A DNA stretch of 38,134 nt from Chloroflexi bacterium HGW-Chloroflexi-9 (GTDB taxonomy: Bacteria; Chloroflexota; Dehalococcoidia; UBA2979). Position 1 is the first letter of the stretch; the number at the start of each line of letters is the position of its first letter. The position numbers and the translations under genes were made by a program. Shown here in pieces: positions 14,173 to 26,667 of the stretch. The notes beneath the pieces were generated by a model, which did no database searches, was not told where the DNA came from, and was given only the letters and a program-made list of their open reading frames with translations. The DNA lies in contig PHBR01000006.1 of assembly GCA_002840675.1 (NCBI GenBank), positions 1 through 38,134 of the forward strand, given 5' to 3'.

Positions 14173-14275
14173 TCGCCTCCGGGTGGACGGGCGGTACGGG
14201 CGGTGGCGTATCCTTTTCCCGGGCGGATGTCCGGCGCTGAGCGTCAGGATTCAGCCCGGAAGGAGGGCGGCAGCC

Positions 14276-14545
14276 ATGGCAGCCGACCTGATACATGTGG
14301 GATTCGACAACTACCTCACGCTTGATCGCGTGCTTGCGGTGGCTTCGCCGGCCTCGGCGCCCATGAAGCGGACCATCCAGCGCGCGAAGGAGATGCACCG
14401 CTCGATCGACCTGACGAGCGGGCGTCGTACGAAGGCCGTAGTGGTGATGCACGAGGACTGGGTCTCGCTGATCGCGATCACGCCTGAGACGTTCGCCGGG
14501 CGGGTGGCCGCACTCCGCGCCGCTGCCAGCGGCTCGGCCTCCTAG
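14276..14545 (+). CDS. RemA-like (DUF370) DNA-binding protein
   Basis: This gene encodes 89 residues with the full DUF370 pattern: DLIHVGFDNYLTLDRVLAVASPASAPMKRTIQ, then IDLTSGRRTKAVVVMHEDWVSLIAITPETFAGR. The family includes RemA of Bacillus subtilis, an oligomeric DNA-binding regulator of matrix and osmoprotection genes, and it is usually encoded next to gmk, as here. AAGGAGG nine bases before the ATG at 14276 is a near-perfect ribosome site. The role in this organism is not known. Confidence 0.92.
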   Translation: MAADLIHVGFDNYLTLDRVLAVASPASAPMKRTIQRAKEMHRSIDLTSGRRTKAVVVMHEDWVSLIAITPETFAGRVAALRAAASGSAS

Positions 14546-14550
14546 CCTTC

Positions 14551-15159
14551 GTGGAGGACGTCGCCGTCGCCTCACCGCTGGTCGTCGTCCTCACGGGCCC
14601 CTCGGGTGTCGGCAAGGATGCCGTGGTGAACCGCGCGCGTGACCTGGGCGTCCCGCTGGAACGCCCGGCGACCATGACCACGCGCGCCCCGCGCCCCGGC
14701 GAGATCGAGGGCGTCCACCATCTGTTCGTGACCCGCGATGCGTTTCTCCGCAACGTCGCCACCGGCGAACTGCTGGAGCACGCGGAGGTGTACGGGAACC
14801 TGTACGGGGTGCCCCGTTCCTCCGTCCGCGCCGCGCTCGCGACCGGCCACCATGTGGTGATCCGCGTGGACGTGCAGGGCGCCGAGTCGCTCCACGACCT
14901 GCTCCCGGGCGCGCTCTTCATCTCGCTCGAACCGTCCACCCTGGACGCGTTGCGGGTGCACCTGGAGGAGCGCGGTACGGAGGGTGCGGGCGAGGTGGAG
15001 CGCCGCCTGGCGATCGCCGCCGCCGAGATCGAACGCGCCCGCACCTTCTGCCGGCCGCTGGTGAACGCGGAGGGCGACCTGGACGCCACCGTCGCCGCCC
15101 TCGTCGCGCTCCTGGAGGCGGAACAGACGCGCCCGGACCGCGCGGTGGTGCGGATCTAG
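14551..15159 (+). CDS. gmk: Guanylate kinase
   Basis: This gene encodes 202 residues and makes the enzyme that phosphorylates GMP to GDP with ATP. The P-loop is GPSGVGKD. The GMP-binding segment TMTTRAPRPGEIEGVHHLF, the FLE-type GELLEHAEVYGNLYGVP and RVDVQGAESL are all in family order. Start is GTG 5 nt after the remA-like stop, so the pair is cotranscribed. The core lid region is somewhat degenerate compared with enterobacterial enzymes but key residues remain. Confidence 0.92.
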   Translation: MEDVAVASPLVVVLTGPSGVGKDAVVNRARDLGVPLERPATMTTRAPRPGEIEGVHHLFVTRDAFLRNVATGELLEHAEVYGNLYGVPRSSVRAALATGHHVVIRVDVQGAESLHDLLPGALFISLEPSTLDALRVHLEERGTEGAGEVERRLAIAAAEIERARTFCRPLVNAEGDLDATVAALVALLEAEQTRPDRAVVRI

Positions 15160-15199
15160 GGGCGCTTCCGGCGACCTGGCGGCCGACCGCGGGCGTTCG

Positions 15200-15229
15200 T
15201 TGACAGCGCGATTCCGGTAGACGTAACGT
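15200..15229 (+). promoter_or_regulatory. Promoter of the trp operon
   Basis: A perfect -35 TTGACA (15200-15205) is followed after 18 nt by TAACGT (15224-15229), placing the start of transcription near 15236, just ahead of the T-box. It is the only consensus -35 I see in the window. Confidence 0.6.
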
Positions 15230-15236
15230 GGCCGTC

Positions 15237-15554
15237 TGATCAATCGCGTACAGAGTGACGCTGATCGGGAATAGTAGGCCGCTTCGCGGGACTCAGAGAG
15301 CCGGGGCAAGGTGAGAGCCCGGCGTCCGCCAGCAGCGGTTGAATGGACCCGTGAGTCCCGGCCCGAGGCCCTCGATCCATCGAGGGAGGTAGGCGTCGGC
15401 GGTGTGGGCGCCGTTATCCATGCCCAGGCGATCGCCACCACGGGGTACCGGGGCGGGCCGTCGCTGGATGAGCCTCCACCCCTGCGGGCGGAGGGAATTG
15501 TGGGTGGCACCGCGAGGACCATCGCCCCACGTGTACGGGGTGGTGGTTTTTTTT
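15237..15554 (+). promoter_or_regulatory. T-box riboswitch, Trp-specific (UGG specifier)
   Basis: This is a classic transcriptional T-box that binds uncharged tRNA and permits readthrough. Stem I elements are the AGTA motif at about 15273-15276, AGAGAGCCGGGG with GGTGAGAGCCCGG forming the distal arm (about 15296-15323), and the specifier loop GAA-TGG-ACC at 15341-15349 with Trp codon TGG at 15344-15346. The loop is bracketed by helices GCCGCT/AGCGGT and CGGG/CCCG. The T-box sequence GGGTGGCACCGCG starts at 15502. Its TGGC matches a GCCA 3' end, agreeing with the G discriminator of tRNA-Trp. The terminator follows. It controls trpE and the genes after it. Confidence 0.93.
15519..15554 (+). terminator. 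T-box intrinsic terminator
   Basis: A 10-bp stem with two G-U pairs (15519-15528 with 15537-15546, arms CCATCGCCCC and GGGGTGGTGG) is followed by eight T residues at 15547-15554. It is the only hairpin in this window with a long U tract. The upstream arm directly follows the T-box sequence, as needed for a switch between antiterminator and terminator. Confidence 0.92.
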
Positions 15555-15591
15555 GTGGGCCGGAGCCGGCGAGATGACGAGGGAGCGAAGG

Positions 15592-15696
15592 ATGAGCAGG
15601 CATCACCGTCCGAGCGCGCAGACGCGACACGGGCAGTGGTCATGGTGGTGGCGCGGGCGCGTCACCCACCCCACCTTTGTGGTCCTCGGAGCCTGA
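15592..15696 (+). CDS. Trp-rich leader peptide upstream of trpE
   Basis: This is a 34-codon open frame placed after the T-box terminator. AGGGAG at 15580-15585 is six bases before the ATG, an excellent ribosome site. Residues 16-20 read W-S-W-W-W (TGG TCA TGG TGG TGG at 15637-15651), while the rest is ordinary. The TGA at 15694-15696 is one base before the trpE ATG, and the trpE Shine-Dalgarno lies inside its last codons. The Trp codons overlap a hairpin (15648-15665, GTGGCGC/GCGTCAC). No second terminator separates it from trpE, so it should act on translation: ribosomes would pause at the Trp run when charged tRNA-Trp is scarce. The mechanism is inference; the frame, site and codons are seen. 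Confidence 0.8.
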   Translation: MSRHHRPSAQTRHGQWSWWWRGRVTHPTFVVLGA

Positions 15697-15697
15697 C

Positions 15698-17164
15698 ATG
15701 ACCTACTCACCCGAACTCACCGACGTCCGCCGCATGGTGGGGCGCGGCAACATCGTCCCGATCTATCGCGAGGTGCGCGCGGACCTGGAGACGCCCGTCT
15801 CCGCCTACCTGAAGGTGGCGCGCGGCCCGTACTCGTTCCTCCTAGAGTCCGTCGAGGGGGGCGAGCGCCAGGGGCGCTACTCCTTCATCGGCACGGAGCC
15901 GTACCGCGTCCACTCCGCCACGCACGCGGAAGGCGACCCCTTGAACGTGGTGCAGGAGGAACTGGCGCGCTTCAAGTCCGTGCAGGTGCCGGGCCTGCCG
16001 CGGTTCCACGGCGGCGCCGTGGGCTACCTGGGCTACGAGGTGGTCACCCACTTCGAGCCGCGCGTGCCGATCACCGGTCGGGACGTGCTGGGCGTGCCGG
16101 AGTCGTGGCTGATGTTCACCGACACCCTGCTCGTGTTCGACCACCTGAAGCACAGCATCAAGGCCGTCGCCCACGTCCGCCTCGATGGCGACGTGGACGC
16201 CTCCTACCGCGCGGCGCAGCGCCGCATCGACGAACTGGTGGAGCGGCTGGCGATGCCGCTGGGGGCGCTGCCGTACGTGCCGTTCTCCGGCGTGCGCGGC
16301 GACGAGGTGCAGTCGAACTGGGAGCACGAGGACTTCCTGGGCGCCGTCCGTCGCGCCAAGGAGTACATCACCGCCGGCGACATCATTCAGGTGGTGCTCT
16401 CGCAGCGACTGTCGCGCCGCACCGGCGCGCACCCGTTCGAGGTCTACCGCAGCCTCCGCGCGATCAACCCGTCGCCCTACCTCTTTTTCCTGCGCTTCGA
16501 TGACACGTACCTGGTCGGCTCCTCGCCGGAACTCCTCGTGAATATCGAGGAGGGCGGCGTGGAGGTGCACCCGATCGCCGGCACGCGCCGCCGTGGCGAG
16601 ACGCCGCTGGACGACGAGCGCCTCGCCGAGGAGTTGCGGCACGACCCGAAGGAGATCGCAGAGCACGTCATGCTCCTGGATCTGGGTCGGAACGACGTCG
16701 GCCGCGTCTCGGAGCCGGGCAGCGTGGCGGTGAACCAGAAACTGGACCTGGAGTTCTACTCCCACGTCATGCACCTGGTGAGCAACGTCACGGGCCGCCT
16801 GCGTAAGGACATGACCGCTTACGACGCACTGCGCGCCGCGTATCCGGCGGGCACGGTCTCCGGCGCGCCGAAGATCCGCGCGATGGAGATCATCGCGGAA
16901 CTGGAGTCGGATCAGCGCGGCCCGTACTCGGGTGGGGTCGGCTTCTTCGACCTGTCGGGGAACATCGAGACCTGCATCACGATCCGGACACTGGTGATGA
17001 AGGACGGCATGGCCCATGTGCAGGCCGGCGCCGGCATCGTGTACGACTCCGATCCGCAGAAGGAGTACGAGGAGTGCTGGCAGAAGGCCCGTGCGCTCCT
17101 CGCCGCCCTCGACGATGCAGAGCGGGGCGAGGGCGCCGCGCCCGCCGGAAGCCTGGGGTACTAG
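15698..17164 (+). CDS. trpE: Anthranilate synthase component I
   Basis: This gene encodes 488 residues of the large subunit, which makes anthranilate from chorismate using ammonia passed from TrpG. LLES at residues 48-51 is the tryptophan feedback-binding motif. The C-terminal chorismate-binding half has DIIQVVLSQRL, NPSPYLFFLRF, GSSPELLV, HPIAGTRRRG, LDLGRNDVGRVS, SGAPKIRAMEI and GPYSGGVGFF, with IETCITIRTLV near the end. The ATG at 15698 has CGGAG seven bases upstream, inside the leader peptide end. Normal length. First gene of the operon, controlled by the T-box and probably by the leader peptide. Confidence 0.97.
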   Translation: MTYSPELTDVRRMVGRGNIVPIYREVRADLETPVSAYLKVARGPYSFLLESVEGGERQGRYSFIGTEPYRVHSATHAEGDPLNVVQEELARFKSVQVPGLPRFHGGAVGYLGYEVVTHFEPRVPITGRDVLGVPESWLMFTDTLLVFDHLKHSIKAVAHVRLDGDVDASYRAAQRRIDELVERLAMPLGALPYVPFSGVRGDEVQSNWEHEDFLGAVRRAKEYITAGDIIQVVLSQRLSRRTGAHPFEVYRSLRAINPSPYLFFLRFDDTYLVGSSPELLVNIEEGGVEVHPIAGTRRRGETPLDDERLAEELRHDPKEIAEHVMLLDLGRNDVGRVSEPGSVAVNQKLDLEFYSHVMHLVSNVTGRLRKDMTAYDALRAAYPAGTVSGAPKIRAMEIIAELESDQRGPYSGGVGFFDLSGNIETCITIRTLVMKDGMAHVQAGAGIVYDSDPQKEYEECWQKARALLAALDDAERGEGAAPAGSLGY

Positions 17165-17166
17165 TC

Positions 17167-18081
17167 ATGGCAGAGTCACAACTCGCCTCGGTCGGCGTCC
17201 TCGTGCGTGAGGACGGCAAGGTGCTGATGGTGCGCCACCCCAGCGGCCCGTTCGCCGGGAAGTGGTCCATGCCACTCATTGGCGTGCACGACATGGAGAC
17301 CGCGGAGGCCGCCCTGGAGCGCATGCTCCGGGAGATGCTGCATGTGCAGCCCGGGCCGTACGAGTTCCTGGACACGCTCTACCTCGGTGGTTCCGGTGGC
17401 GAACGCTTCATCGGCAACGTCTTCACCTGCGTCGACTGGACCGGCGACCCGCGCTTCGCGCGCGAGGTGTTCGACGACGCGATCTGGCTGTCGCCGTCCG
17501 AGCCCGGTGGCCTGGAACTTCTGCCCGAGGTGCGCGAGTTCCTCCGCACCTCCTTCGAGGCGGAGACCGGCGTGATCGCCGCCGTCGAATACGACTCGGC
17601 TTCGCTGGCGCAGGAACTGGCGGACGCGCGCGAGGGACTGCTGGCTGCGTACGACGCGATCCCGTCCGACCTCCGGGTGGAGGTGCTGGAGGAGGGTGGC
17701 TGGTCACCGCTGGACGCGCTGACGCACGCCGCGGACGCGGAGGCGTACTACATCGCCGAACTGCGCCGCTGCCTGGACGAGCCCGGTCGGGTGTGGGTGC
17801 CCTTCAACGGTGGCCAGTGGGGCGACATGCACCGCCTCTACCCCGCGCAGGGTGAGGCGGACGTCATAGTGCGGATGGAGCAGGTGCGGCAGGAGACGCT
17901 GCTCTGGCTCAAGTGGCAGGGCCCGGACACGCTGCGCGCGTACGTGAGCCACCCGGAGCGCGGCGTCACCCAGGCCGGTGGCCGCGTTGCGAAGGTGGCC
18001 ACGCACGACCGCGAACACGCCGAACAACTGCGGCGGATGTGGCAGACCGCCACCATCCGTGCCGCCCTTGACCCGCAGTAG
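17167..18081 (+). CDS. Nudix-like / DinB-like fusion protein within the trp operon
   Basis: This gene encodes 304 residues in two parts. Residues ~5-125 have the Nudix fold pattern ([33 protein letters not shown]), but the Nudix box is degenerate: G39 and R55-E56 are present, while the catalytic EE is replaced by H59-V60, so hydrolase activity is doubtful. Residues ~145-300 resemble a DinB four-helix bundle with the metal triad H187 (LTHAADAE), H280 and H284 (HDREH), and the helix [13 protein letters not shown]. DinB proteins include thiol S-transferases and isomerases. The ATG is 2 nt after the trpE stop and trpG follows by 14 nt, so it is made with the tryptophan enzymes. Its role is unknown. 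Confidence 0.75.
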
Positions 18082-18095
18082 GACAGGAGACGCCC

Positions 18096-18689
18096 GTGTT
18101 GCTCCTCATCGATAACTACGACTCGTTCACCTACAACCTCTACCAGTACCTCATGGAACTGGGCGCGAAGGTGGAGGTGTTCCGCAACGACCAGATCAGC
18201 GTGGAGGACTGCCTCGCGATGAACCCGGAGCACGTGGTGATCTCACCCGGCCCGTGCTCGCCGAAGGAGGCGGGCATCTCGGTCGACCTCATCCCGGCCT
18301 TCGCGGGGAAGGCGCCGCTGCTGGGCGTCTGCCTGGGCCACCAGTGCATCGGCGAGGCCTACGGTGGCATCGTTGAGTCGGCCGGCGAGATCATGCACGG
18401 CAAGACCAGCCAGATCACCCACGATGGCCGAGGCGTATTCGCCGGCCTTCCGAACCCCTTCGAGGCGATTCGATATCATTCGCTTGCGATCCGGCCGGAC
18501 TCCGTGCCGGCGGTGCTGGAGGTCAGCGCACGCTCGGAGAGCGGCGTGATCATGGGCATCCGCCACCGCGAACTGGCGATCGAGGGTGTGCAGTTCCACC
18601 CGGAGTCGATCATGACCGAACACGGGCACGCGCTTCTGCAGAACTTCCTCGGCATGCGTACGACGCAGCCGGTGGGAGCCGCCTCGTGA
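18096..18689 (+). CDS. trpG: Anthranilate synthase component II (glutamine amidotransferase)
   Basis: This is a class I glutaminase of 197 residues that feeds ammonia to TrpE. The nucleophile is C79 in GVCLGHQ and the other triad residues are H168 and E170 in [16 protein letters not shown] and [12 protein letters not shown] are typical of TrpG/PabA. The GTG at 18096 has GGAG six bases upstream. No separate pabA or pabB is in the window, so a shared role in folate synthesis is possible. It overlaps trpD by 4 bases (GTGA). Confidence 0.96.
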
Positions 18690-19738
18690 TCCGCGAAGCG
18701 ATTGCCGCGCTGGTCGACGAGCGCCGGGACCTGACCGAGCGCGAGGCGCGCGATTCGATGCGCGAGATCATGAACGCCGGCCTGGACGGCTCCGCCGGTG
18801 AAGCCGCGACCGCCGCGCAGTTCGGCGCGTTCGTCACGGCGCTTCGCATGAAGGGCGAGACCGTCGATGAACTGACGGGGATGGCGCTCGCAATGCGCGA
18901 GGCGTCCCTGAAGGTGGACGTGGCGGTGAAGCCGCTACTGGACACCTGCGGCACCGGCGGCTCGAACAAGAAGGTCTTCAATGCCTCCACGGCGGCCGCG
19001 TTCGTCGCGGCCGGCGCCGGGGCGAAAGTCGCGAAGCACGGCAACCGGGCGATGACCTCGCAGTCTGGCTCCGCCGACCTGCTCGAGTCGCTCGGCGCGG
19101 TCGTGACGCTGGGGCCAGCGCAGGTGGCCGAGGTGATCACGAAGACGGGCGTGGGCTTCATGTTCGCGCAGACCTTCCACCCGGCGATGAAGTTCGCCGG
19201 GCCGCTGCGCCGTGAGATCGGCATCCGCACCGTCTTCAACATCCTGGGGCCGCTGACGAACCCGGCCGGCGCCACCTGTCACGTGATGGGCGCGCCGGAC
19301 GCCGAGCTCGCGGGCAAGCTCGCGCAGGTGCTCGCGCGCCTGGGCATGCGCCACGCGCTCGTCGTGAGCGGTGAGGACGGCCTGGACGACATCACCGTGA
19401 CCGGCCCGACGACGGTGTTCGAGGTGCGCGGGGACGCCGTGACGCAGCGCACGATCACCCCGTTCGACCTCGGCCTCACCGTCCACGCGGAGGAAACGAT
19501 CACCGGTGGTGATGCCGCGCAGAACGCGGCGCTCACCCGCTCTGTGCTCAGCGGCAACGGGCCGCTGCCGCTGCGCGACCTCGTCGTCGCGCAGGCGGGC
19601 GCCGGCCTCTACGTCACCGGCCTCGCCTCCTCGCTCCGGCAGGGCGTGGAGATGGCGATCCGTTCGATCGACGAGGGGGACGCGGCCGCGAAACTCGCCG
19701 CGTTCGTCGAAGCGACGCGCCGCGCGGCGGGGAAGTAG
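18686..19738 (+). CDS. trpD: Anthranilate phosphoribosyltransferase
   Basis: This gene encodes 350 residues and makes the enzyme joining anthranilate to PRPP. The PRPP-binding signature is [17 protein letters not shown], followed by [54 protein letters not shown] and [10 protein letters not shown], all characteristic. Length is normal. The GTG start overlaps the trpG stop, giving translational coupling, and trpC follows by 6 nt. Confidence 0.97.
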
Positions 19739-19744
19739 AGCCAC

Positions 19745-20602
19745 ATGCCCCCATCCCGCGCGCGGCACACCGGCACCATCCTCGACCGCATCGTCACCGA
19801 CCGACGCGTGCGGCTGCAGGAGGACCGCGCCACCCGGGATGAGGACGCGCTGCGCGCGCTGCTCGTGCAGCAGCCGGCCCCGCTCGACTTCGTCGCGCGT
19901 CTGCGCGACGGCCGTCGCGCGACGCCGGAGGGCGCACGGCTGCGGCTGGTGGCGGAGATCAAGCGCGCTTCACCCAGTAAGGGATTGTTCGACGCCGACC
20001 TCGACGCGGTCGTGCAGGCGCGCGCCTACGCGGAGGCGGGTGCGGCCGCGATCTCGATCCTCACGGAGCCGGACCACTTCCGAGGCAGCATCCAGGACCT
20101 GGCGGACGTCAGCGCGGCGTTCGCCGGCGATCCAGACCGCCCGGCACTGCTGCGCAAGGACTTCATCTTCGACCCGTACCAGGTGCTGGAGGCGCGCGCG
20201 TTCGGCGCGGATGCGCTGTTGCTGATCGTGATGATGCTGGAGCCGTACGCGCTGCGCGACCTCCTCGCCGCCACGCATGCGCTCGGCATGGAGGCGCTGG
20301 TGGAGGTGCACGACGCGGACGAACTGGACGCGGCAGTTGCCGCCGGCGCGCGCGTGATCGGCGTGAACAACCGTGACCTGCGCACGTTCGAGGAGGACCT
20401 CGGCACGTTCGAGCGCCTCGCGGCGCTGGCGCCGGCGGGTGTGACGCTGGTCGCGGAGTCCGCGATCCGGTCGCCCGAGGATGCGCGCCGCATGGCGTAC
20501 GCCGGTGCCCACGCGTTGCTCGTGGGTGAGGCGCTCGTGCGCAGCGGCACGGTCATCGACACCGCGCGGTCGTTCATGCTGACGGGCGCGGCCGCGAAAT
20601 GA
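19745..20602 (+). CDS. trpC: Indole-3-glycerol phosphate synthase
   Basis: This is a TIM barrel of 285 residues that closes and decarboxylates CdRP to indole-3-glycerol phosphate. Catalytic lysines lie in AEIKRASPSKG and LLRKDFIFDPYQV. ALVEVHDADELD, IGVNNRDLRTFEEDL and VAESAIRSPEDA are in family order. It starts with the expected IL-DRIV-RR helix after a short N-terminal extension. The ATGA overlap with trpF couples their translation. Confidence 0.97.
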   Translation: MPPSRARHTGTILDRIVTDRRVRLQEDRATRDEDALRALLVQQPAPLDFVARLRDGRRATPEGARLRLVAEIKRASPSKGLFDADLDAVVQARAYAEAGAAAISILTEPDHFRGSIQDLADVSAAFAGDPDRPALLRKDFIFDPYQVLEARAFGADALLLIVMMLEPYALRDLLAATHALGMEALVEVHDADELDAAVAAGARVIGVNNRDLRTFEEDLGTFERLAALAPAGVTLVAESAIRSPEDARRMAYAGAHALLVGEALVRSGTVIDTARSFMLTGAAAK

Positions 20603-21359
20603 CCTACGTGAAGATCTGTGGGAACCGCACGCCGGAAGACGTCCTGGCCGCCGCCGAGGCGGGCGCGGACTTCGTCGGCATTATCTTCGCGGCCTCGACA
20701 CGCCGCGTGGAGATCGAGGACGCGCAGGCGATGGTCCGCGCCCTCGGTGGGCCGCTCTCGACGCACGAGATCCAGTACCCGCCGCCCGCGCAGCCGCGCG
20801 CACGCGAAGAGATCGGCCCGTGGTTCGAGCACGGCGCGCGCGTGCTGGAGGCGTACCGCGAGGTGAAGCGCCCGCTCGTCGTGGGCGTGTTCGCCGACCA
20901 GCCGATCGACGAGGTCAATGAGATCGCGGAGGAGGCGGGGGTCGACCTCGTGCAGTTGTCCGGAGATGAGACGTGGGAGGACTGCCTGCGGGTGAACCGC
21001 CAGGTGATCCAGGTGGTGCACGTGTCGCCCGTGGACTCGCCCTCCGACCCGATGCAGTTCGTGCAGCCCGGCTTCGCGATCGCCCTGATGCTCGACTCCG
21101 CGCACGGCCCGTACCGCGGCGGAACCGGCGTCACCTTCTCCTGGGAGGTGGCCCAGCAGGTCGCCTCGCGCATCCCGATGCTGCTCGCGGGCGGCCTCAC
21201 GCCGGAGAACGTCGCGGAGGCGGTCGCGACGGTGCGCCCGTGGGCGGTGGACGTGGTCAGCGGCACGGAGACGGACGGCGCGAAGGACCACGCGAAGGTG
21301 CGCGCATTCATCCAGGCGGTCCGCGACGCGGACGCCCGTATCGCCCGAGAGGCAGGCCG

Positions 21360-21363
<4 letters not shown>
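20599..21363 (+). CDS. trpF: Phosphoribosylanthranilate isomerase (with insertion)
   Basis: This gene encodes 254 residues. TrpF performs the Amadori rearrangement of PRA to CdRP. The general base C7 is in VKICGNR, and the general acid Asp is in [27 protein letters not shown] and [14 protein letters not shown] complete the barrel. The protein is about 40-50 residues longer than usual because of an insert at about residues 51-88 (Pro-rich, then [21 protein letters not shown]), between the second and third strands. Overlaps trpC and trpB starts (ATGA at both ends). Confidence 0.95.
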
Positions 21364-22547
<1,184 letters not shown>

Positions 22548-22611
22548 GCACCACCGGGAGGATGGGTTGCGGAGCAGGCAAGGCTGAGGCACCACCGCAG
22601 CCGGGGGGCGA

Positions 22612-22884
22612 TCACCCCAAGGGCTCGCAGCCTGCCACCGTCGCCATTAGTTCAAGCCATGCACGTCGGTTGGCTCTCCACCACCGACCGAGTTGTCTCG
22701 TGGAAGTGCAGCCGGTCAACTTCTTCAAGTCCTCGACATGGCTCCGCGCTCCGTTGACCGACACCCCCATCTGCGCCGCGACTTCCGGCAGCGTGGCCCC
22801 GTCGGCGAGCAGCGCCAGCACCTCAGCGCGCCTCGCGGTGACGTGTAAAAGGTCTGACGCGACTGGAGGTCCGTTGTCGTGCAT
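22612..22884 (-). CDS. Small LuxR-type HTH protein, possibly 5'-truncated
   Basis: This gene encodes 90 residues from the first ATG. Residues ~16-68 form a LuxR/GerE-type helix-turn-helix (TARRAEVLALLADGATLPEVAAQMGVSVNGARSHVEDLKKLTGC) with recognition helix VSVNGARSHVEDL. No receiver or sensor domain is present. The frame stays open 31 codons upstream of the ATG to a TGA at 22978-22980. That extension encodes a Cys cluster (KCPLQGDRVTACLCGKC) that looks like part of a zinc-binding domain but has no ATG or GTG start, so the gene may have lost its 5' end where the lower-GC segment begins. It is antisense to the operon and probably not part of it. The 190 bp up to 23076 hold no other gene. Confidence 0.55.
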   Translation of the reverse strand: MHDNGPPVASDLLHVTARRAEVLALLADGATLPEVAAQMGVSVNGARSHVEDLKKLTGCTSTRQLGRWWRANRRAWLELMATVAGCEPLG

Positions 22885-23075
22885 GCATTTCCCGCAGAGG
22901 CAGGCGGTGACGCGATCCCCCTGGAGAGGGCATTTACGGTACCGCTCGCTCTGGCTTTCGTAACCCCATGCAATGGATCAATACGTCTACCATTCCATTA
23001 AGTCAAATCGAGGATTGAGGAGGGAGACATCGCTCCATCGGAAAAATGAACGACTGACTAGCAGGATGGTATAAG

Positions 23076-23705
23076 GTGAATCAAGCGAAGATTGCGTTGA
23101 TTAGCGGCGCTGCCGGTGTGTTTATCGCGTTAGTTGTAATTCTTCTCAACATCACATCGATTAACTCTGGATCTTCTTCCGCAGCCGATCCTAATCAGGT
23201 CCGCGCACGATACGTGGCTTTCGTGAGTCCTGAGACACTGCGCCTTCTGGGGTCGCCTGAGATACAGGACTCACTCCGCCTCGATCAAGTCGATGCCGCT
23301 GACGCGGTCAGGCCTCTCGTTTTCCAGAGCGACGCGGATGGCATCATCATGGATGCAGAGACGATGGAGGCGCTTCCGGAAGGAACAATGGCGAACCTGT
23401 TTGCTTCTGGAAGAGTTATCGTGGTGTTTAACGTCGAGAAGCAAGACATCCTGCGTGCGTCGAATAGTAGTGACGCATTCCCAGATGCGGACAAGGCACT
23501 CATCCCCGATGTGACCATGAATCCAGGCGATCCTGTTGGGGGGTTCAGTCAGCCGTTCTTCAGTCTCGTCTACCGGTCCAGGCCCGGTCAGGGAAATGTC
23601 TATGGCGGGGAAATGACCCGAGAATTCGATCCACATCTGTTCTCGGCAATGCTGAATGAGCGCGCCACGAACGCTCGTGGCGTAATTACCGGAGTTACCG
23701 AATGA
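23076..23705 (+). CDS. Hypothetical single-pass membrane or exported protein
   Basis: This gene encodes 209 residues from a GTG start. The N-terminal segment IALISGAAGVFIALVVILL is a signal anchor, after which a Ser-rich linker leads to a soluble domain facing outward. The domain has alternating hydrophobic strands (ARYVAFVSPETLRLL, RPLVFQSDADGIIMDAETMEAL, GRVIVVFNVEKQDIL, GFSQPFFSLVYRSRPGQGNVYGGEMTREFD). No Cys and no known catalytic motif were seen. Codon use and base content are clearly less GC-rich than the flanking trp genes, suggesting recent acquisition. It overlaps the next exported-protein gene (ATGA). I do not recognise the family. Confidence 0.65.
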   Translation: MNQAKIALISGAAGVFIALVVILLNITSINSGSSSAADPNQVRARYVAFVSPETLRLLGSPEIQDSLRLDQVDAADAVRPLVFQSDADGIIMDAETMEALPEGTMANLFASGRVIVVFNVEKQDILRASNSSDAFPDADKALIPDVTMNPGDPVGGFSQPFFSLVYRSRPGQGNVYGGEMTREFDPHLFSAMLNERATNARGVITGVTE

Positions 23706-24211
23706 CCGTCACGTCAGTAGCCTCGCGAATGCGTTGGATTGGCTTGGTAGTACTTATTACGGTGCTCTTCGCTGCCGTAGCCGTCCAGCAGGCGTTTGCT
23801 GAGCAAAGCTCAAGTTCTTGCGGTGGTGTGACCTGTGTGCGGCAGACCACGTGGGCCTACAGTGATGGCAGCTATCGATCGAGTGCAGCCTCCTCGACAG
23901 GCTCAACATTCTATGCGATATCTACAGACATGTATGGTTACAATATCTACCATTATGGATCGTTCGGCGCTGCGATCGATCACGAGTACAGCTATTGTCC
24001 TTCCACGACCTTCTGCAGCGTGCCAGCCGGTTGGAACTGTAGTTCCGCTGCTCCTCCTACGGGGTGCGGGGGAGGTACAGCGAATTGGTATGACACGACG
24101 CTCCACTTTTTCCGTCAGACGAACAACGGACCCGACTTCAGCTTCTACACGAGTACAGATGGCACTCGTTCCAGTTACACATGCCTCGCCGGCTCCGGGA
24201 CGTGCTTCTAG
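23702..24211 (+). CDS. Secreted Cys-rich hypothetical protein
   Basis: This gene encodes 169 residues. A signal peptide (RMRWIGLVVLITVLFAAVAVQQAFA) precedes a mature part rich in Ser, Tyr, Thr and Gly with eight Cys (CGGVTC, CPSTTFC, NC, GC, YTC, GTCF), probably paired as disulfides. Aromatic-rich stretches such as YAISTDMYGYNIYHYGSFG suggest a beta-rich surface or binding protein. There is no anchor, so it is likely released or held by its upstream partner, whose stop overlaps its ATG. Lower GC like the partner gene. No similarity to a named toxin or bacteriocin family could be supported. Confidence 0.65.
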   Translation: MTVTSVASRMRWIGLVVLITVLFAAVAVQQAFAEQSSSSCGGVTCVRQTTWAYSDGSYRSSAASSTGSTFYAISTDMYGYNIYHYGSFGAAIDHEYSYCPSTTFCSVPAGWNCSSAAPPTGCGGGTANWYDTTLHFFRQTNNGPDFSFYTSTDGTRSSYTCLAGSGTCF

Positions 24212-24270
24212 CCTGCCCGTGTTTTAGACGTGGAGTCTGGCGGATCGGCACCGAATACGATGTCTAATGA

Positions 24271-24300
24271 GAGGAGGCTCGCCAGGCGGCGAGCCTCCTC
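24271..24300. terminator. 13-bp perfect hairpin, likely bidirectional terminator
   Basis: GAGGAGGCTCGCC (24271-24283) pairs exactly with GGCGAGCCTCCTC (24288-24300) around AGGC. It lies between the convergent secreted-protein gene (ends 24211) and HAD gene (ends 24364). It has no T run on either side. Confidence 0.65.
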
Positions 24301-24363
24301 CAGTGCAGTGGAACGACGCAGGCGAATGTCATCGTCCACCGCGCCCGGATCGGGACGGGTCCC

Positions 24364-25032
24364 TCAACGCCGCGCGGGGAGGCCCCACTCGGCCGGGTCG
24401 AACGCCTCGAGGTGGTTGAGGACCAGGTGGGCGGAGGTCACGAGCGTCTCGTGGCCCGTCTCGGGGAGCGCGATCACGGACATGCCGGCGGCGAGTGCCG
24501 ACTCGACGCCGAGCGGCGCGTCCTCGAACACGAGGCACGCCTCGGGTGCAGCACCGATGCGGCGGGCGGCCTCGAGGAAGATGTCCGGCGCCGGCTTGCC
24601 GTGCGCGACGTCCTCCGAGGTCACGATTGCTTCGAACTCCCCGAACCATGCATCGTGCGCCACGCGCTTGTCCGCGAGCGAGCGGGCCGAGGAGGACGTG
24701 GCGATCGCCTGCGGGATGCGGTGCGCGCGCAGGTGGGCGGTGAGTGCGCGTGCCCCGCGCGTGGGCAGGACGTCGCGGAACAGGATCGCCAGCGCTTCCT
24801 CGCGCTCGTGCGCGAACTCCTCGGGCGTGAGCGGGATGCCGGTGGCCTCGATCAGGATACGCGACGCGACGGACGTGGGGCGGCCGATCATCTGCGCGCG
24901 CACGGCCGGGTCCAGCGGCACGCCGTACCGGGCGAGGATGGTCGTCGTCACCTGCCGGTACAGCGGCTCGGTGTCGAGCAGCGTCCCGTCGAGGTCATAG
25001 ATGACGTGGGTGATCCGAGGGCGGTGCGGCAC
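24364..25032 (-). CDS. HAD-superfamily phosphatase, subfamily IA
   Basis: This gene encodes 222 residues. Motif I is YDLDGTLLDTE, with the first Asp the nucleophile. Motif II is the TS in AIATSSSA, motif III the Lys in VAHGKPAPDIF, and motif IV FEDAPLGVESALAAGM. The helical cap between motifs I and II matches the beta-phosphoglucomutase/pseudouridine-5'-phosphatase group, so the substrate is a small phosphorylated metabolite, not specified. The GTG at 25032 is 6 nt after a TAGGAT -10 box, which supports this start. Divergent from the CPBP protease gene. Confidence 0.9.
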   Translation of the reverse strand: MPHRPRITHVIYDLDGTLLDTEPLYRQVTTTILARYGVPLDPAVRAQMIGRPTSVASRILIEATGIPLTPEEFAHEREEALAILFRDVLPTRGARALTAHLRAHRIPQAIATSSSARSLADKRVAHDAWFGEFEAIVTSEDVAHGKPAPDIFLEAARRIGAAPEACLVFEDAPLGVESALAAGMSVIALPETGHETLVTSAHLVLNHLEAFDPAEWGLPARR

Positions 25033-25038
25033 CCCTCC

Positions 25039-25092
25039 ATCCTACCGACGCGCGGGGAGGCCGTCGCGGACGGCGGGGGCCGCTGGTAGCCT
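25039..25092. promoter_or_regulatory. Divergent leaderless-type promoters (HAD and CPBP-trpA)
   Basis: On the minus strand TAGGAT (plus 25039-25044) is 6 nt from the HAD GTG. On the plus strand TAGCCT (25087-25092) is 7 nt from the CPBP ATG at 25100. The two -10 boxes face away from each other across 42 bp. This plus-strand promoter would drive trpA and the genes after it independently of the trp T-box. Confidence 0.5.
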
Positions 25093-25099
25093 TCGAGAT

Positions 25100-25849
25100 A
25101 TGGCGATCGAACGTCCCTCGCAGTCACCGCCGTGGACGCCGCTGGGCTGGCGCGCGTCCGACCTGGCGCTCGGCCTCCTCCTCGTGCTCGTCGGGCTCGG
25201 CGGGCTGATCGGGATCGGCGTCGCGCTCGCGACCGTCCTCGATGTCGGCGATCCCGCGGAGGACGCCGCGGCGGCGTTGCTCTCCGCGATCATCGGCTTC
25301 GGGTTCGAGGTATGGCTGGGCGTGCTGGTGTTGCTGCTGGCGCTTCGGCGCGGCATCACCGGCACCGACTTCGGGTTCGACGCACCGCACAACTGGCGGC
25401 TCGTCAGTATCGGCGTGCTGGGTGCGTGGACCGTCATCCTGGTCTACGGCATCGGCCTGGCGCTGATCCAGAAGGTCACGGGCGCCGACCTCGGGCAGTT
25501 CACGGAGGGCAACGCGCTCCCGGAGTCGTCCGCGCGGACGGCGGCGGTGTGGGCGGCGCTGGGGTTGAGCATCGTGGTGGCGGCGCCGCTCTGCGAGGAG
25601 TTGTTCTTCCGTGGCTTCCTGTTCCGGGCGTTCGATACGCTGCAGGGGACGCGGGTCGCGTACGTCCTCAGCGGCCTCGGGTTCGCCCTCTTCCACTTCA
25701 ACCTGAGCGTGGTGCTCCCGTTCTGGGTGATCGGCGTACTGTTCGCCTGGATCTACCGGAAGTCTGGGTCGATCTGGACGCCCATCGCCGCACACGCGAT
25801 CTTTAATGCTGTCTCGTTTGCCGTGACCATCGCAGGAGCTACCTCGTGA
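25100..25849 (+). CDS. CPBP family intramembrane metalloprotease
   Basis: This is a multi-pass protein of 249 residues with about seven membrane segments. The CPBP (CAAX protease/bacteriocin-processing, Abi) motifs are present: EE and R in [21 protein letters not shown] with the catalytic His, and HAIFNAVSF with the final His/Asn. Family members cleave prenylated or other membrane substrates or protect against bacteriocins; the substrate here is unknown. Its TGA overlaps the trpA GTG (GTGA at 25846-25849), so trpA is translationally coupled to it, an odd pairing. Confidence 0.93.
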
Positions 25850-26667
25850 GCACCACCGCCACCACCGACCGCCTCGCGGAGATGTTCGCGCGGACCCGCG
25901 CGGAGGGCCGCCCGGCCGTCATCCCCTTCATCCCGGCGGGCTGGCCAGAACTCGACGCCACCGTCGAGATCGTCGAGGCGGCGGTCGCCGGCGGGGCGGA
26001 TGCGGTCGAACTCGGCCTTCCGTTCAGCGACGCAATGGGTGATGGGCCGGTCAACCAGCGCGCCTATGAGCAGGCGATTGCGAACGGTTGTACGACGGAA
26101 ACGGTGTTCGCCGCGGTGCGTGAACTGCGCGCCCGTGGGGTTCGCGCACCATTACTCATTATGGGATACTCCAACCCGCTGTTCGCATACGGGGTGGACA
26201 GGTTCGTGCAGCACGCCGTCGAGGCGGGGGTGGACGGTCTGATCACCGTCGACCTCCCTCCGCAGGAAGCGGGGGAACTCGAACGGCCCGCCCGGGCAGC
26301 CGGGCTGCACATGGTGTACCTGCTCGCCCCGACCTCGACCGACGAGCGCATCCGTCTGGTCGCGGCACACGGGAGCGGCTTTATCTATTGCGTGAGCGTC
26401 GTCGGGATCACCGGCGCCCGGCGCGAACTGTCGGCTGAGTTGCCTGAGTTCGTCGCCCGTGTTCGAGCCCTGACGGATCTGCCGCTGGCCGTTGGCTTCG
26501 GCATCTCCGCCCGCGAACACGTCCAGGCGGTCGGGGAACTGGCGGATGGTGCGATTGTCGGCAGTGCCTTCGTCAACCTTGTGGCGGAGACACCAAGGGA
26601 GCAGCGCCCGGCACGTGTCCGGGCCTTCCTGGAGGAGATCACCGGTCGTGACCCTGGACATCGGTAA
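25846..26667 (+). CDS. trpA: Tryptophan synthase alpha chain
   Basis: This is a TIM barrel of 273 residues that splits indole-3-glycerol phosphate to indole and G3P. The catalytic Glu is in [19 protein letters not shown] and the catalytic Asp is in the same loop (GDGP; the usual sequence is ADGP). [40 protein letters not shown] and [13 protein letters not shown] are canonical. The gene starts with GTG overlapping the CPBP stop and is separated from trpB by 3.3 kb, so it is not under direct T-box control unless transcription reads through. Confidence 0.96.

Follow-up and report, generated by a model that had tools for sequence, protein, structure and literature searches.

Tryptophan synthesis is among the best-mapped of pathways, yet an uncultured family of Dehalococcoidia keeps an uncharacterised protein between its two anthranilate synthase genes, which raises the question of what such a protein does there. 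The case studied here comes from Chloroflexi bacterium HGW-Chloroflexi-9, contig PHBR01000006.1, positions 1 to 38,134 (this whole stretch of 38,134 nucleotides is called the window, and all coordinates are positions within it). The gene (17167..18081) lies on the forward (+) strand, as do its trp neighbours and the domains and residues discussed below; it starts with ATG and encodes a Nudix-DinB fusion of 304 aa. It is preceded by trpE, encoding anthranilate synthase component I (15701..17164; Pfam PF00425 4.7e-90, PF04715 1.6e-30; LLES feedback motif present), and followed by trpG, encoding component II (18096..18689; GTG start; PF00117 9.6e-62), and then by trpD (18686-19738), trpC (19745-20602), and trpF (20599-21363), all three assigned by ORF and sequence. 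The tight spacing noted by an earlier, sequence-only reading was confirmed, with gaps of 2 nt from the trpE stop (17164) and 14 nt to the trpG GTG (18096). Scans of limited power showed no sigma-70-like promoter or terminator in 15100-18800, and the Rfam search returned a tRNA as its sole match.

The source genome belongs to a GTDB-level family of Dehalococcoidia (Chloroflexota), coded f1, for which 36 genomes were available. The Nudix-DinB gene is present in 33 of them, representing 16 genera with TrpE identity down to 66%, and every copy is located between trpE and trpG; the count is based on tblastn at 30 loci, on coordinates for G007 and G021, and on G017, where the contig runs out just within the gene. 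Further downstream, trpD follows trpG in all loci that extend far enough. The sequence-only reading had proposed a constant member of the operon, and had named as evidence to the contrary homologues scattered away from trp genes or a chance fusion in a single genome; the arrangement trpE-X-trpG in 33/36 genomes and the spread of the fusion across the genera bear out the proposal and speak against both. The gene is thus conserved far beyond chance, in view of its frequency, its fixed slot, and dN/dS below 1 in all pairs tested, and it forms an accessory of the trp operon that is passed on by vertical descent. Among the three remaining genomes, no trpE was found in G030, while G006 and G020, two reduced genomes of genus g5 (~1.1-1.2 Mb; assemblies 83-88% complete), lack the gene and have trpE and trpG adjacent, showing that it is dispensable. 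We infer from these two genomes that the Nudix-DinB protein is not a required subunit of anthranilate synthase. Named relatives are Dehalococcoidia/Chloroflexi MAGs of several studies, UBA6627 among them, and contamination or misassembly was rejected because the relatives' genomes show an identical gene order and because independent MAG projects yielded the named matches.

Both domains of the protein scored above the Pfam cut-offs (NUDIX PF00293, residues 7-118; DinB_2 PF12867, residues 151-288), and an AlphaFold2 model with 29 family sequences as input had a mean pLDDT of 89 and a pTM of 0.66. The N-terminal domain (residues 5-133; 17179..17565) has the Nudix fold, according to both the Pfam match (1.2e-9, 38.7 bits against a cut-off of 21.1) and the model (VIA Z 17.8 to 3r03 and 17.2 to MutT 3a6t). 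It resembles Nudix hydrolases of the MutT/NudI type (3r03, 3a6t, 4dyw) in its fold (Z 17-18, 18-22% identity) and in a box that aligns without gaps, and differs from them in lacking Gly38, E53, E57, and Gly59, in being fused to DinB, and in being fixed between trpE and trpG. The Nudix box (residues 38-60; 17278..17346), aligned to MutT without gaps and with positions given in MutT numbering, does not match the catalytic pattern GX5EX7REUXEEXGU; it carries G38I, E53M, E57M, and G59H, with E44, R52, and E56 kept. E53 and E57 are key catalytic and metal residues of MutT, and Glu occupies the matching columns in 60 and 68, respectively, of 69 Nudix domains taken for comparison from the genomes studied. 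As both are absent from all 30 aligned family members, which retain the fold residues, the Nudix half is very probably non-hydrolytic. The earlier claim of a missing Glu pair was therefore right as to the loss and wrong as to the place, since it pointed to H59-V60, where H59 stands at the box Gly position and V60 is a normal hydrophobic residue. Its further suggestion of a binding role is compatible with the very probable lack of hydrolysis, and the domain may thus have become a binding module.

Two kinds of protein offer comparisons for such a change. In NrtR-type transcription factors, a Nudix domain serves as the sensor module; the C-terminal half of the slot protein, however, is DinB rather than a DNA-binding (winged helix-turn-helix) domain, and a domain search found no HTH family match in the Nudix-DinB protein. 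A precedent is also provided by CCAR2/DBC1, in which a catalytically dead Nudix domain binds NAD+ and which likewise lacks the catalytic acids and keeps the box Arg (PMC10474295). CCAR2/DBC1 is eukaryotic and has unrelated partner domains.

The C-terminal half (residues 143-296; 17593..18054) is a DinB/YfiT-like four-helix domain (PF12867 5.3e-6, 27.3 bits against 24.8; VIA Z 16.6 to YfiT 1rxq over 158 residues, 15.2 to ClbS 7mtl), which places it in the DinB/YfiT S-transferase-like (STL) superfamily. In the source protein, the three histidines that had been described as intact are indeed all present: His187 (17725..17727), followed after 93 residues by His280 and, four residues later, by His284 (HxxxH; 18004..18018), which is the spacing of H67, H160, and H164 in the BstA/YfiT triad (PMC5815605). 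Across the 30 aligned family members, the triad is intact in 23 and broken in seven, from the four genera g10, g11, g12, and g15, all of which keep the gene; the alignment indicates that it was lost several times within the family. The idea that the metal site is the working part of the protein is hence not supported. The slot protein further differs from BstA/YfiT in its N-terminal Nudix domain, and BshC was not found in any f1 genome searched, so that bacillithiol is not an obvious co-substrate and the reading of the DinB half as a bacillithiol transferase is weakened. DinB proteins of the ClbS/DfsB type (7mtl, 6anr, 5civ) also share the fold of this half (Z 14.5-15.2), whereas the slot protein has two domains and is encoded in a trp operon rather than in a biosynthetic cluster.

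The two halves are constrained to different degrees. NG86 dN/dS, calculated for ten close pairs and to be read as rough figures because some dS values are high, was below 1 in all ten, with 0.013-0.447 for the Nudix half versus 0.112-0.746 for the DinB half. The Nudix value was the lower in nine of the ten pairs, so this half is usually under the stronger purifying selection, and it is the dead Nudix that stays constant. In genus g10, in which the triad is gone, the values were 0.40 for DinB and 0.16 for Nudix.

The Nudix half also has relatives beyond the family. Its best matches outside f1 lie in the same slot and are fused to a class I SAM methyltransferase (f16, f66, and G102 of f50; for the methyltransferase-type contigs G183, G223, and G243, the trpG side alone was checked). 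Degenerate Nudix domains in the slot are fused to a CMD domain in f33 and to an AAA_33/CPT-like P-loop kinase-like domain in f25, and the slot of f68 holds a stand-alone Nudix protein with an intact box. Against 47 Nudix domains from the slot we set 69 others, taken from nine of the same genomes. The DinB- and methyltransferase-fused domains grouped together (UFBoot 96, SH 0.93-0.97), and by this grouping they are one lineage; with the CMD- and kinase-fused types added, all degenerate fused domains still grouped (UFBoot 80, SH 0.845), giving moderate indication that these belong to the same lineage. These UFBoot values are from a set of 46 sequences, and an interim IQ-TREE tree of all 116 Nudix domains agreed with them. 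The degenerate fused slot domains have a signature in Asn84 (17416..17418), found in 42/42 of them versus 0/69 other genomic Nudix domains. When a slot-Nudix profile was run over 400 genomes of the phylum, the hits of 98-150 bits, some of them training members of the profile, came from eight genomes and without exception from the slot, and scores elsewhere were at most 54.5 bits; no degenerate fused slot Nudix was found away from trpE-trpG in these 400 genomes. One degenerate Nudix lineage, which probably includes the CMD- and kinase-fused types, occupies the trpE-trpG slot of several Dehalococcoidia families, and its C-terminal domain differs by family. Since the TrpE tree, examined for a single clade of the Nudix-bearing families, had an unresolved backbone, a single insertion with losses and several transfers are both compatible with this pattern.

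We tentatively propose, with a probability of about 0.38, that the protein is a ligand-binding dead-Nudix module made together with anthranilate synthase and joined to an exchangeable modifying domain. The proposal draws on the fixed slot, the loss of E53 and E57, purifying selection, the swapping of C-terminal domains, Asn84, the slot-restricted profile, the match to YfiT/BstA, and the dead-Nudix precedent; binding, ligand, and the link to the pathway are all putative. The Nudix half would have lost hydrolysis and kept a remodelled ligand pocket (Asn84, Phe67, Thr70, Trp107), and its constant task would be to recognise a single ligand, either a metabolite from the chorismate-anthranilate-PRPP node or a related nucleotide. 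The C-terminal domain may modify or scavenge the bound ligand, in the source genome as a His3-metal thiol transferase of the DinB/YfiT type, and lineages that have no His triad might act through binding alone. Such a division of labour would recall that of two-domain DinB enzymes, in which specificity for the non-thiol substrate is attributed to the second domain (PMC5815605), and the close spacing to trpE and trpG would tie the dose of the protein to that of anthranilate synthase. A bolder form, which we consider improbable, would see in the protein an operon-embedded metabolite sensor of a new class, in which a dead Nudix recognises a chorismate/anthranilate-node ligand and passes the ligand or a signal to a swapped effector (DinB, methyltransferase, CMD, or kinase) while the slot stays fixed. 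Both halves belong to known superfamilies; in the literature searched, there appears to be no description of their architecture or of the fixed trpE-trpG slot with its changing partners, and no paper connected Nudix or DinB with trpE/trpG. Effector swapping on a conserved dead-Nudix core is a natural experiment, in which the common pocket should point to the ligand and the attached domains to its fate.

The strongest rival is that the gene has nothing to do with its neighbours: an ancestral Nudix gene would have landed in an insertion-tolerant gap, where it uses the steady expression of the operon for an unrelated housekeeping or detoxification job, with the C-terminal domains as by-products of fusion. 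The slots of other families are empty or hold unrelated genes (SDR, CMD-CMD, ABC transporter, HflKC-like, SH3-like; names assigned by eye from sequence wherever Pfam was not run), so position alone is no proof of a common role. Likewise, the slot of f59 holds a stand-alone methyltransferase that shares 47-49% identity with most of its fused f66 counterparts, suggesting that the fusions arose from adjacent slot genes, and a CMD-CMD gene is present in the slot of f20. The dispensability of the gene in g5 fits this explanation too, as does the separation of trpA itself from trpB by ~3.3 kb in the window. It accounts less well for a degenerate Nudix lineage that is confined to the slot in the genomes searched, for a new pocket residue (Asn84) conserved across four types of partner, and for purifying selection; we regard it as doubtful, though a serious possibility.

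A second alternative keeps the link to anthranilate synthase and dispenses with the ligand: the protein would be a pseudo-enzyme that binds TrpE and/or TrpG and adjusts how they assemble, channel glutamine, or respond to feedback, with a C-terminal domain that provides a spare surface for dimerisation or contact. The position of the gene exactly between the two subunit genes, mostly with short gaps or overlaps, would suit such a partner, and so would the persistence of the gene when catalytic residues have gone from both halves. TrpE and TrpG, however, function elsewhere without the protein, g5 included, the C-terminal partners are structurally unrelated, and the LLES feedback motif is retained in every TrpE checked (57/57 sequences), which makes this alternative unlikely. 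The sequence-only reading had also suggested that the protein could be a regulator, a possibility to be weighed against the same LLES motif in TrpE and the absence of the gene from g5. A last alternative is a DinB/YfiT/ClbS-type enzyme that detoxifies as an active S-transferase or hydrolase, with the Nudix half as a structural cap only. It would explain the triad with its BstA/YfiT spacing and how closely the fold matches YfiT and ClbS, but it is very unlikely given the seven members that retain the gene without the triad, the greater constraint on the Nudix half, and the failure to find BshC.

Several observations concern the slot in families other than f1. The Dehalococcoidia trpE-trpG gap is insertion-prone, with ABC-transporter, HflKC-like, SDR, and Lrp-type genes according to family (L076, L077, L081, L089-L098). 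In f33, one slot has two successive Nudix-like genes, a stand-alone one followed by a degenerate CMD-fused one (L085 160-627 and 576-1322, G109; compare L083 151-585), and a protein of ~109 aa with no Pfam match is encoded between a HAD-like gene and trpG (L083 2089-2415), with similar proteins in several f33 slots. The f50 slot of L067 (G143) contains GNAT-like, stand-alone degenerate Nudix, and quinone-oxidoreductase-like genes and no Nudix-methyltransferase fusion. Locus L182 (G227, f33) has a slot gene of the f33 Nudix-CMD type, but its TrpE groups with that of f16, a hint that trpE was transferred or recombined in this genome.

In the window itself, there is a second break in the trp cluster, with trpA (PF00290 match 25885-26610) lying beyond an intervening region (22548-25845) after trpB. 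This region includes a helix-turn-helix ORF on the reverse strand (22612-22884, -), ORFs with no Pfam matches, and a CAAX-protease-like gene (25001-25849). Just upstream of trpE (14240-14545) are a RemA-like (PF04025) gene and a gmk-like gene.
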